Virus record (IMG/VR): IMGVR_UViG_3300020463_003399
Span: 25,561-89,560 of that record
Strand: one strand, 5' to 3'
From: a virus
Length of the DNA stretch: 64,000 bases
Part shown: positions 56,013 to 62,311 of the stretch, piece by piece
Numbering within the stretch: the stretch's first letter is position 1
Layout: every line of letters begins with the position of its first letter
The notes under the pieces: model-generated
Told to the model about the DNA's origin: nothing
What the model saw: the letters and a program-made list of their open reading frames with translations, nothing else
The model's database searches: none
Made by a program: the position numbers and the translations under genes

Positions 56013-56605
56013 TGATTTGGCTATTTGGTGAAACATCAGATTTTTCTAAATCTTTACTAAACGAACTAAAAAAGAAAAACGATGATATTGAAACGTTTGG
56101 TAGACGAAACATATCGTATATTGAATACGTAAGGTCAGAGATTAATCTAAATGAAACTCTCCCAGACAAAGTAATCGTAAATATAAATCTAAACCCACAA
56201 CTTTCGTTAATGAAAGGTGATAAGTGGGTCAAGCCTTTACAAGTTATATATTTTATTTCAGATTTACTTCAGGCTTTTTATGAGTCAGGTAAAGATATAA
56301 CAGTTGTATACATTACAAGTTCAATAGCAGTAAATCGTTCACCTGAAAAATATTTTCTAAAACATAAAGATTATATTTCTATTCGACAAACACAACAAGC
56401 TATGTGGTCTTCATATGATTTAAATAAACTTAAAGTATTAGGAGTTAGCCCTTCAAATATTGATGGTAAGAATATGCAAAAGTATTCTGAAAGAATAGTA
56501 GGGTTTCTCTATGATACGCCTCCTGTAAGAAAATCACTAATAGATTTAAGCTGGCACAATGGCACCAAAGATGAGTGGGTTGAATTGTACAAAGTTGATA
56601 AATAG
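56012..56605 (+). CDS. Short Rossmann-like (SDR-type) protein
   Basis: The pattern IWLFGETSDFSKSLLNELKK then NDDIETFGRRN fits the first beta-alpha-beta of an NAD-binding fold, although the usual GxxGxxG is absent. VVYITSSIAVNRSPEKYF followed by QAMWSSYDLNKL could be remains of the Ser-Tyr-Lys active site. At 197 residues it is short. Catalytic activity is doubtful; may be a degenerate epimerase. Confidence 0.5.
   Translation: MIWLFGETSDFSKSLLNELKKKNDDIETFGRRNISYIEYVRSEINLNETLPDKVIVNINLNPQLSLMKGDKWVKPLQVIYFISDLLQAFYESGKDITVVYITSSIAVNRSPEKYFLKHKDYISIRQTQQAMWSSYDLNKLKVLGVSPSNIDGKNMQKYSERIVGFLYDTPPVRKSLIDLSWHNGTKDEWVELYKVDK
56597..56605 (+). promoter_or_regulatory. Late-type box within the end of the previous gene
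   Basis: GATAAATAG ends four bases before the ATG at 56610. Its predicted start is the A of that ATG. Confidence 0.5.
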
Positions 56606-56609
56606 ATAT

Positions 56610-57290
56610 ATGCGTATAGAAGAAATCATACAATCATTTGAAGAAGGTATTAACGACCCTCACATTTTTAAAGCAGTATTCATGGCTGGCGGACCTGGTT
56701 CTGGTAAGTCATTTGTTGCTGATAAGATGTTGAAAGGTACTGGCTTGAAAATGGTAAACTCAGACCAAGTCTTTGAACTTATGATGAACAAAGACGGAAT
56801 TGAAATGACTCCAGATAATGTTGGTAGTGAAGAAGGTCAAGAAAGACGAGAAAGAGCAAAAAAACTTACAGTTAAAAGAAAAGATATTTTCTTAGATGGT
56901 AAACTTGGTGTCGTTATCGATGGTACTGGTAAAGACGTTATGAAGATTGGTAAGATTAAAGAAAGTCTTGAAAAGCTAGGTTATGATAGTATGATGCTTT
57001 TTGTTAATACTAGTTTAGATGTTGCACTACAAAGAAATCAAAAAAGAGATAGAAGTGTACCTGAAGACATGGTAAAAGACATGTGGAAACAAGTACAAGA
57101 CAACATTATGAAATTTCAACAAATGTTTGGTGCTCCAAACTTCTATGTTGTCGATAATTCAGGCGGACTAGAAGATCCAAATAGACAGAAAAACTTTGTT
57201 AAAGTAGATAGAGCGATTGATAAATTCTTAGTTCAACCTCCAACAAAACGTGTCGCTAGAGATTGGATTCAAGCAAATACCCGAAAATAA
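56610..57290 (+). CDS. P-loop kinase / zeta-toxin-like protein
   Basis: A 226-residue P-loop protein with Walker A GGPGSGKS at residues 27-34 and the lid-type phrase QRNQKRDRSVPEDMVKDMWK. The substrate-side VNSDQVFELMMNKDG and a Walker B-like GVVIDGTGKD fit zeta-toxin or polynucleotide-kinase-like small-molecule kinases. I chose ATG 56610; it overlaps nothing but lies five bases after the stop codon of the previous gene. No antitoxin is visible. Possible nucleotide or sugar kinase. Confidence 0.72.
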   Translation: MRIEEIIQSFEEGINDPHIFKAVFMAGGPGSGKSFVADKMLKGTGLKMVNSDQVFELMMNKDGIEMTPDNVGSEEGQERRERAKKLTVKRKDIFLDGKLGVVIDGTGKDVMKIGKIKESLEKLGYDSMMLFVNTSLDVALQRNQKRDRSVPEDMVKDMWKQVQDNIMKFQQMFGAPNFYVVDNSGGLEDPNRQKNFVKVDRAIDKFLVQPPTKRVARDWIQANTRK

Positions 57291-58374: not shown

Positions 58375-58497
58375 TTAGGCTATCTCCTTGCCACACATTA
58401 AGTCTTTCGCTTTTTTGTGATGGCCTTGTCTTGCTAATTCAGTCGCCGCTCTCATACGTCCAATATGTTCAAACCATGCAAGTAATCTTTTAACCAT
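58375..58497 (-). CDS. 40-residue basic peptide
   Basis: A minus-strand frame encoding MVKRLLAWFEHIGRMRAATE then LARQGHHKKAKDLMCGKEIA. It has the look of short phage/bacterial helical peptides of DUF1127- or DUF3563-like type. The ribosome site (AAAGGTTGG) is weak. It lies four bases from the next upstream gene and keeps the tight spacing of this cluster. Confidence 0.45.
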   Translation of the reverse strand: MVKRLLAWFEHIGRMRAATELARQGHHKKAKDLMCGKEIA

Positions 58498-58500
58498 ATA

Positions 58501-58662
58501 CTAGATCCAACCTTTCAGATTTGGATTTACGTTACCGTATGTTAAATTCTTTTGTCTTTGTTCTAAGTCAACCAAATCTACAGAATTGCTTAGATAGACA
58601 TCAACTGGTGTAGTTGATTCCCAACCCCATTTAAAAGTAAAAAGTCTTTTTATAAAGTTCAT
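58501..58662 (-). CDS. 53-residue DUF3563-like peptide
   Basis: A minus-strand frame with GGAG nine bases before the ATG. The segment VDVYLSNSVDLVDLEQRQKN resembles the YLA.A.DL.DLE.R motif I recall for DUF3563, which occurs in small bacterial proteins of unknown function. Basic N-terminus MNFIKRLFTFKWGW. Confidence 0.55.
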   Translation of the reverse strand: MNFIKRLFTFKWGWESTTPVDVYLSNSVDLVDLEQRQKNLTYGNVNPNLKGWI

Positions 58663-58676
58663 TATTAGTTCTCCTA

Positions 58677-58859
58677 TTAGTTTTTAATTCTATTCGTTTT
58701 ATGCCAAGTTGGTGCTTTCCCTGTCAAACACATTTGTTCGTAGGCATACTTCCAATCTTTTTTGTATTCTGTTTTCGCCCATATCAAAAACTCTCTGTGG
58801 CGTGGCTTTTCACTATCCGCAAAGACATTAAGTAGGGCATCGAAAAAATTCGTTACCAT
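58677..58859 (-). CDS. 60-residue peptide heading the minus-strand cluster
   Basis: A minus-strand frame encoding MVTNFFDALLNVFADSEKPR then a Trp/Lys-rich part (HREFLIWAKTEYKKDWKYAY). GGAGTTAGAG lies directly before the ATG. It is the first gene behind the GC-rich structured leader at 58870-59020. Function unknown. Confidence 0.55.
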   Translation of the reverse strand: MVTNFFDALLNVFADSEKPRHREFLIWAKTEYKKDWKYAYEQMCLTGKAPTWHKTNRIKN

Positions 58860-58869
58860 TCTCTAACTC

Positions 58870-59020
58870 CGTTCCAAATTGTAGATGCTTAAGGTAAGCA
58901 ATACCCCGGTCTCTCCCGGCGCCGCTCTTGTAAGGCATGGGTTATGCCACGGTCTTTCCCTGTCGCCAACACAGTGTAAACTTTTGGGAAGTATCGCAAC
59001 TGTGTCCACTTCTATTTAGT
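58870..59020 (-). ncRNA. GC-rich structured leader or small RNA with imperfect internal repeat
   Basis: Bases 58860-59186 contain no convincing gene. The core (58904-58967) is about two-thirds GC in a genome near one third. Read on the minus strand it holds hairpins ACACAGT/ACTGTGT, GGCAT/ATGCC and GGTA/TACC, and two similar units, one with GGGAAAGACCGTGGCAT and one with GGGAGAGACCGGGGTAT, each followed by a hairpin. It lies directly upstream of the minus-strand peptide cluster. I cannot match it to a known riboswitch; strand and function are inferred. Confidence 0.4.
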
Positions 59021-59186: not shown

Positions 59187-59483
59187 ATGGAATATAAAAC
59201 AGTACATTGCGTAAAATATAACAAGGAACTACGTGCCTTAGATAAAGCACCTTTTCCAGGACCTGCAGGTAAAGAAATATTTGAAAAAGTTTCTGAACAA
59301 GCATGGAATGATTGGCTAAATTTTCAAACAATTCTTATTAATGAAAATAGATTAAATCTTATGGAAGAGAATGCAAGAGATTTTTTAACAAAACAAAGAA
59401 ATAAGTTTTTCTTTGAGCCAGGAGAATTAGATATGCCAGAACAATTTGTAGATCCTAACAAAGTGCCTGATTTGAAATCGTGA
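59187..59483 (+). CDS. yggX: Fe(II)-trafficking / oxidative-damage protection protein YggX
   Basis: The 98-residue protein matches YggX along its length: [57 protein letters not shown] and FFFEPGELD. YggX limits iron-dependent oxidative damage and supports Fe-S proteins. The conserved Cys is near the N-terminus (HCVKY). It is the first gene of the operon and ends with an overlapping GTG start of the next gene (GTGA). With SufB and the SufT-like protein it is the third iron-related gene of the phage. Confidence 0.92.
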
Positions 59484-61801: not shown

Positions 61802-62311
61802 ATGAAATATAAACTGATAGATGAACAAGATCCAAGATTAAGACAAAGATGTGAGCCTCATAACATTACTAAAGAGACAGAGCAATTAGTATATGATATG
61901 ATTGTGACAATGGAAGAACACGATGGTATTGGACTAGCGGCACCTCAAGTTGGTGTAATGGAAAGAATATTTGTTATAGGTCACAAAGATACTGGATATG
62001 TAGTTTGTATAAATCCAACATGGAAAGCTATAGATGATGCAGAAAGAGAGTCATTTTTAGAAGGTTGTTTAAGTTTCCCTTTGTTAGAAATGAATGTATT
62101 AAGATATAATAAAGTACAATGTACATTTACTAATCTAAAAGGCGAAACATCAACTAAACAATTTACTGGTGTATGGGCTCAAGCAATACAACATGAACAT
62201 GACCACTTAGAAGGTATAACATTTGATACTAGAGTTCCAGAGAATATATTAAGTACTGCAAAAGCATTACGTAAAGAGAAATTAAAAAACATTAAAGATA
62301 GTGATGCATAA
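61802..62311 (+). CDS. def: Peptide deformylase
   Basis: Removes the formyl group from nascent proteins. The three motifs are intact: GIGLAAPQ at residues 42-49, EGCLS at 87-91 and QHEHDHLEG at 130-138 with the metal-binding HExxH. 169 residues is the bacterial full length. Phage deformylases are known in marine phages and may favour processing of viral or photosystem proteins in their hosts. Last base is the first of the next gene. Confidence 0.94.
   Translation: MKYKLIDEQDPRLRQRCEPHNITKETEQLVYDMIVTMEEHDGIGLAAPQVGVMERIFVIGHKDTGYVVCINPTWKAIDDAERESFLEGCLSFPLLEMNVLRYNKVQCTFTNLKGETSTKQFTGVWAQAIQHEHDHLEGITFDTRVPENILSTAKALRKEKLKNIKDSDA

Follow-up and report, generated by a model that had tools for sequence, protein, structure and literature searches.

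Results

A GC-rich leader precedes a small-protein operon

The window, meaning the whole 64,000-nucleotide stretch of viral DNA analysed here, belongs to a T4-like myovirus as judged by its sheath, tube, terminase, SSB and RNR genes. The first-pass annotation had described a core of nearly two-thirds GC at the head of a minus-strand peptide cluster, and indeed no 64-mer of the window exceeds positions 58904–58967 in GC content (65.6%, compared with 34.2% for the window and 34.3% and 32.6% for the two flanks). The two similar units that it had noted were found on the minus strand, GGGAAAGACCGTGGCAT at 58944–58960 and GGGAGAGACCGGGGTAT at 58901–58917, at a spacing of 43 nt. Each is followed by a hairpin, GGCAT-AACCC-ATGCC (58934–58948) and GGTATTGCTTACCTTAAGCATC (58884–58905), respectively. 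The element also adjoins the first peptide gene as described, with 25 nt between the last hairpin and the ATG at 58859 (60-aa ORF, 58677–58859, minus strand). The functional element is longer than originally described, and extends from ACTAAATA at 59013–59020 through the Shine–Dalgarno sequence at 58867–58871. The features of the locus are:

59013–59020, minus strand: late-promoter-like octamer ACTAAATA; relatives carry the T4 late type NATAAATA
58969–59005, minus strand: 5′-terminal hairpin with arms ACACAGT and ACTGTGT, its first pair near the predicted transcript start
58944–58965, minus strand: first unit, a GRC linker plus a NANAGA-loop hairpin (GACA..GG-GAAAGA-CC) with a degenerate stem
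58934–58948, minus strand: hairpin B (GGCAT-AACCC-ATGCC), then the conserved linker TTACAAG; the stem covaries in relatives
58906–58919, minus strand: second unit, the last NANAGA-type hairpin (CCGG-GAGAGA-CCGG), which covaries in relatives
58884–58905, minus strand: terminal hairpin with core GGTATTGCTTACCTTAAGCATC (model R1, 59.1 bits, E 5.5e-24, the window itself being among the 28 training rows)
58867–58871, minus strand: Shine–Dalgarno CGGAG of the first peptide gene, read from the sequence
58677–58859, minus strand: operon gene 1, a 60-aa AKTEY-family peptide (family dN/dS, helix prediction)
58501–58662, minus strand: operon gene 2, a 53-aa DUF3563-like peptide ending in NLKGWI (Pfam PF12086, E=0.0017, a match under the curated cut-off), with an equal position in relatives
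58375–58497, minus strand: operon gene 3, a 40-aa RAATELARQGHH..AKDLM peptide whose family is also third in relatives

The first NANAGA hairpin of the window copy is degenerate and has just 2–3 good pairs, in which it differs from relatives; model R1 gives a weak second match there, at 58943–58968. The H-type pseudoknot of relatives is absent from the window copy, and a search of this copy for an intrinsic terminator did not find one. Folding energy on the minus strand was only mildly better than that of shuffled sequences (z −1.48 for 201 nt and z −1.66 for the 83-nt core, compared with −0.07 on the plus strand), so the case for the element rests on comparison with relatives.

Several plus-strand neighbours caught our attention. 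The divergent gene at 59187–59483 encodes a YggX-family bacterial Fe(2+) trafficking protein (PF04362, E 4e-33), which is unusual for a phage. Positions 56559–57290 encode a P-loop kinase like zeta toxin and polynucleotide kinase (PF06414/PF13671), and an ORF at 61802–62311 has the peptide deformylase motifs GIGLAAPQVG, EGCLSFP and QHEHDHLEG by eye.

The leader recurs in uncultivated marine phages

Scanning IMG/VR for one unit (GGGARAGACCGNGGYAT) returned 21 loci, 7 of which carried a second unit at 42–43 nt; with folding energy insufficient, it was this preserved spacing of the unit pair that led us to judge the element real. The terminal core GGTATTGCTNNCCTNAAGCAT, used as a query in turn, was present in near-identical form in at least 120 viral stretches, and further scans gave 203 copies and then 134 distinct leaders. 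These leaders, at least 134 distinct ones, come from sequences of uncultivated marine phages, including several contigs of more than 300 kb. The median length from predicted start to ATG is 171 nt across the 134 distinct leaders, and a common order is apparent: late promoter, 5′ hairpin, optional pseudoknot, NANAGA hairpins, terminal hairpin, AGGAG and ATG. The NANAGA hairpins number about one to five per leader and are joined by UGACR-type linkers; the optional H-type pseudoknot, which has an A-rich loop, occurs in 60 of 134. The terminal hairpin of relatives reads GGUAUUGCUnnCCUYAAGCAUC or variants thereof. Each of 17 contigs, ranging up to 342 kb, has a single full terminal element, which argues for an operon-specific element and not for a general feature of late mRNAs.

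Among 84,980 prokaryote species genomes the leader was absent apart from three real copies on phage-like marine MAG contigs; the scan gave nine matches, of which these three were genuine, with about 7.5 expected by chance (our own estimate, for 18 fixed bases). The three MAGs (loci L141, L143 and L147) are labelled Neomarinimicrobiota and Flavobacteriales, and the contigs, one of them 335 kb, are probably binned phage DNA. Searches of 50,697 phage records by blastn with the core and with a richer relative, and by tblastn with the peptide, gave nothing relevant. The nearest cultured relatives by terminase (54%), the Pseudomonas phages Wroclawvirus PA5oct and Paride, had no match to the RNA or the peptide. 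A 204-aa flanking ORF used as a query returned zero relatives.

A predicted late promoter and a ribosome site bracket the element

A NATAAATA-like octamer lies upstream of 131 of the 134 distinct leaders, as TATAAATA in 81 and as ACTAAATA, the form in the window, in 7, which marks the operon as a predicted T4-type late transcription unit. The first predicted pair falls 4–5 nt past the promoter in 93 of 117 distinct relatives, and the mean minimum free energy of the 5′ hairpin is −9.7, compared with −6.1 when shuffled. We placed the start site according to what is established for T4 late promoters; with both promoter and start predicted from sequence, the first pair would sit about where a T4 late transcript begins.

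At the other end, accessibility of the Shine–Dalgarno sequence was slightly lower than in control genes (0.445 versus 0.519, p=0.02), and pairing between the loop and the Shine–Dalgarno sequence showed no covariation (5.19 versus 5.24 permuted). A direct on/off switch is thus not visible. Masking of the ribosome site by the CCU of the terminal loop was considered, as the two are complementary, and was not adopted given these two measurements.

Stems covary around fixed loops

We delimited modules through their loops and linkers, never through pairing; because the shuffles used for comparison leave relatedness in place, shuffled values are controls, not probabilities. All 14 distinct 4-nt stem sequences of the NANAGA hairpins pair fully (shuffled mean 3.9). 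With 5-nt flanks 20 of 36 are fully paired, compared with 2.4 when shuffled, and the remaining 16 are mostly 4-bp stems or out-of-register 7-nt loops. The three pairs tested in the last hairpin all vary on both sides, with 100% of cells paired; double-change cells number 16 versus 2.1 shuffled, and the score is 0.291 versus 0.085. The pseudoknot GAGC-GAC-CUCA-GCUC-AGAAAAAA-UGAG is 96.7% paired compared with 22–37% on sliding, with 14 double-change cells versus 3.7, and hairpin B is fully paired in 16 of 26 distinct windows, with 4.8 expected. The terminal stem is invariant in the main variant, partly as a product of selection by the search pattern. Its variants are AUGCU/AGCAU, GGAUG/CAUCC and GAUU/AAUC, and their loop retains CC and AA. 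A GG preceding the core could pair with the loop CC; it is invariant in the main variant and gone in the others.

The first-pass annotation had proposed a structured RNA in the minus-strand 5′ leader of the peptide cluster and had named conservation and covariation in related phages as the test. The outcome is strongly positive: the stems covary, with a promoter on one side and a Shine–Dalgarno sequence on the other. A fixed NANAGA loop beside variable stems implies recognition of the loop.

The operon encodes AKTEY and DUF1127- or DUF3563-like proteins

The first gene is nearly always AKTEY, an undescribed peptide family, with DUF1127- or DUF3563-like small proteins next; AKTEY, DUF1127 and DUF3563 genes all occur as first genes among the leaders. 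To guard against circularity we also searched viral contigs by peptide, using a query alignment built from leader-linked peptides, so that some ascertainment persists; of 306 stretches, 280 proved to encode relatives, and we retained 80. These 80 loci comprised 47 with the exact core, 6 with a near core, 22 with a variant leader recognized by eye and 5 with none, that is, about 75 of 80 have a leader upstream. When the pseudoknot alone served as the query, 29 distinct loci were recovered. A known core is present in 26, the remaining 3 carry a new core variant, and each locus lies ahead of a small-protein gene: AKTEY in 24 cases and other small first genes in 5.

Of 17 large contigs, 15 have one AKTEY gene beside the terminal element. 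The other two bear the leader without AKTEY, which makes AKTEY alone unlikely as the proposed binder. The family is about 50–75 aa long and is under purifying selection (median dN/dS 0.31); prediction gives two helices with modest confidence, and searches of Pfam and the PDB yielded no convincing match in the former and none in the latter. Scoring 113 operons by motif, we found DUF1127 in 56 and DUF3563-like proteins in 38; the window operon has a DUF3563-like protein and no DUF1127.

A C-terminal tail N-L-K/R-G-W-V/I is common to DUF1127, DUF3563-like and AKTEY proteins (32, 13 and 7 cases, respectively), with examples in the operons of L024, L043, L051, L063, L072 and others. It looks as if a common signal had spread through unrelated small proteins. 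By eye, further genes after the peptides in the operons of L027, L124 and L043 seem to encode a pseudoazurin-like cupredoxin of the periplasm and a membrane protein of DoxX type, and about 661 nt past the core of L106 lies a phage-contig ORF matching ATP synthase subunit c (PF00137, E 2e-11).

The RNA resembles known leaders in kind and differs in design

In Rfam 15 the whole window has tRNA-Arg alone above the gathering threshold. The 600 nt around the element gave one irrelevant snoRNA match at E<=10, and searches of 6 and of 12 related loci gave a tRNA, or chance matches far under gathering scores. This agrees with the first-pass annotation, which matched the element to no riboswitch or ribozyme, and holds at permissive thresholds. 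We also considered and rejected a group I intron remnant: TTTAGACTAAATAG is similar to a P7 element, but neither a partner nor a core could be seen and Rfam was silent. The RNA family is new against every library searched, some published marine motifs being absent from Rfam (Ocean-VI, PMC2864571). Its general kind, a structured 5′ leader, is already known; its modular design is unusual.

The Downstream-peptide and glnA (glutamine) riboswitch RNAs (RF01704/RF01739) are likewise structured 5′ leaders, each ahead of a gene for a short peptide, and come from cyanobacterial and marine sequences (PMC2864571). They differ in sequence, fold and gene family: our leader shares the position ahead of a short-peptide gene but not the RF01704/RF01739 consensus, and it is a phage-only modular array with no Rfam match. 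The manA (RF01745) and wcaG (RF01761) motifs are also marine cis-regulatory candidates of T4-like phages (PMC2864571), found in T4-like cyanophages that in some cases carry metabolic genes, whereas the hairpin-array leader has no Rfam match.

Gene 32 of T4, T2 and RB69 has, as do some of the leaders found here, an H-type pseudoknot in a T4-type leader, upstream of the ribosome site. It is the nearest precedent for a leader pseudoknot that acts as an operator for a protein, in this case on an mRNA of unusual stability (PMC3014915). There, however, the gene encodes SSB and an unstructured A+U stretch follows, whereas here the pseudoknot, which covaries in 60 of 134 leaders and is missing from the window copy, precedes a hairpin series and an operon of small proteins.

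Two bacterial systems involve DUF1127. In Rhodobacter, the CcaF1 operon combines a DUF1127 protein with tandem similar RNAs, CcsR1–4, on one transcript, and CcaF1 binds RNA and takes part in maturing these four homologous sRNAs of its own operon (PMC12501420). Those RNAs are host-encoded and lie 3′ of the gene; the hairpin-array leader is of phage origin and lies 5′ of it, and DUF1127 is optional, present in 56 of 113 operons and replaced in the window by the DUF3563-like protein. In Sinorhizobium meliloti a long regulatory leader likewise precedes a DUF1127 gene, but it acts as an attenuator with a uORF and premature termination, and a hairpin array is absent (PMC12218461).

Discussion

We propose that the element is a cis-acting leader of a late mRNA in which the 5′ hairpin and modules protect the transcript and the loops and terminal hairpin bind a regulatory protein, a reading to which we give a probability of about one half. 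Variable stems, fixed loops, a varying number of modules and a single copy per contig together point to recognition of the loops and terminal hairpin by a factor. Transcription would begin at the T4-type late promoter, placing a stem-loop almost at the 5′ end of the RNA; often an H-type pseudoknot would come next, then the compact fixed-loop NANAGA hairpins, and then the near-invariant terminal hairpin just 5′ of the Shine–Dalgarno sequence of the small-protein operon. The 5′-terminal hairpin and stacked modules may shield this one late mRNA from 5′-end-dependent decay; a putative RNA-binding protein of phage or host may recognize the terminal hairpin and the fixed loops. Once bound, such a protein might set the duration or efficiency of operon translation, by analogy with T4 gp32 at its pseudoknot operator, and module count could tune avidity.

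Other readings share part of this evidence. Several small riboswitches have an H-type pseudoknot with an A-rich loop, as these leaders do, and a metabolite riboswitch with a tandem aptamer, controlling the small-protein operon through the terminal hairpin, could also account for the long conserved core and the two similar tandem units of the window copy. Downstream-peptide RNAs show that leaders of this sort can control short peptide genes (PMC2864571). We consider the riboswitch an unlikely explanation, if one to be taken seriously. Relaxing the Rfam thresholds to E<=1 to E<=10 still gave no relevant match, what repeats is a simple hairpin and not a multi-helix pocket, the first genes encode small proteins with no common pathway, and neither a terminator after the element in the window copy nor a Shine–Dalgarno switch was found. 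The earlier annotation had offered a tandem-aptamer leader or a small RNA: the leader stands, and the aptamer is unproven and fits poorly because module number varies, the pseudoknot occurs in fewer than half of the leaders (60/134) and the first genes differ. Rather improbable in our estimate is a passive stabiliser or insulator, whose structures merely stop 5′-end decay and keep the ribosome site clear. The predicted 5′-end hairpin in 93 of 117 relatives, the nearly continuous structure and the free number of modules would suit it, but it leaves unexplained the near-invariant NANAGA loops and invariant terminal stem beside free stems, as well as the restriction to one operon per contig.

The position of the copies, between a late promoter and a Shine–Dalgarno sequence, makes a leader more likely than a free-standing small RNA. 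An RNA processed out of the leader might instead act in trans, either as an sRNA or, as a decoy, by titrating ribosomes or an RNA-binding protein of the host. Arrays of similar hairpins with fixed loops suit a decoy, and the DUF1127 protein encoded in about half of the operons may aid processing, as CcaF1 does in maturing sRNAs (PMC12501420); but a Shine–Dalgarno sequence and a conserved ORF follow directly 3′ wherever that side is readable, and the window copy has no DUF1127, so we regard this reading as improbable. Attenuation, with AKTEY as a sensing leader ORF to whose translation the RNA structures respond, has a precedent in the upstream-ORF translation that controls the S. meliloti DUF1127 gene (PMC12218461), and AKTEY does lie directly upstream of DUF1127 or DUF3563. 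It is nevertheless very improbable: at about 50–75 aa and conserved as a protein, AKTEY exceeds the typical leader peptide, the conserved structure lies 5′ and not 3′ of its start, and a terminator was not found. The compact GC island with divergent genes on either side might suggest a site acting as DNA, whether as an origin or in packaging or recombination, or else a chance accumulation of GC. Covariation contradicts this reading, and it is scarcely credible: over 100 contigs combine transcript-sense compensatory changes with a late promoter at one end and a Shine–Dalgarno sequence at the other.

The protein-bound late leader that we favour can be taken further. We suggest, tentatively and with the odds against us, a new class of leader built like beads on a string, in which hairpins with identical loops form an expandable array, bounded 5′ by a pseudoknot or hairpin and 3′ by the near-invariant terminal hairpin, and a dedicated RNA-binding protein reads this array for post-transcriptional control of a small-protein toolkit. 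That protein may itself be among the small proteins that the operon encodes. The operon DUF1127 proteins offer a suggestive lead to mechanism, given the RNA binding of CcaF1 and its part in sRNA maturation (PMC12501420) and the regulatory leader of the S. meliloti DUF1127 gene (PMC12218461); the window copy lacks DUF1127, so it cannot be the general answer.

To our knowledge, few structured cis-regulatory RNAs are known in phages. In a 2010 review, the gene 32 pseudoknot was the only viral pseudoknot named for translational autoregulation (PMC3014915). The leader described here is found widely among uncultivated marine phages, often of jumbo size, its covariation is strong, and the operon that it marks encodes homologues of host DUF1127 proteins, which in bacteria bind either RNA or the phosphate sensor PhoR (PMC12501420). 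It provides a genome marker for its phage group and a directly testable RNA. If the beads-on-a-string view is true, large marine phages would regulate a small-protein toolkit post-transcriptionally.
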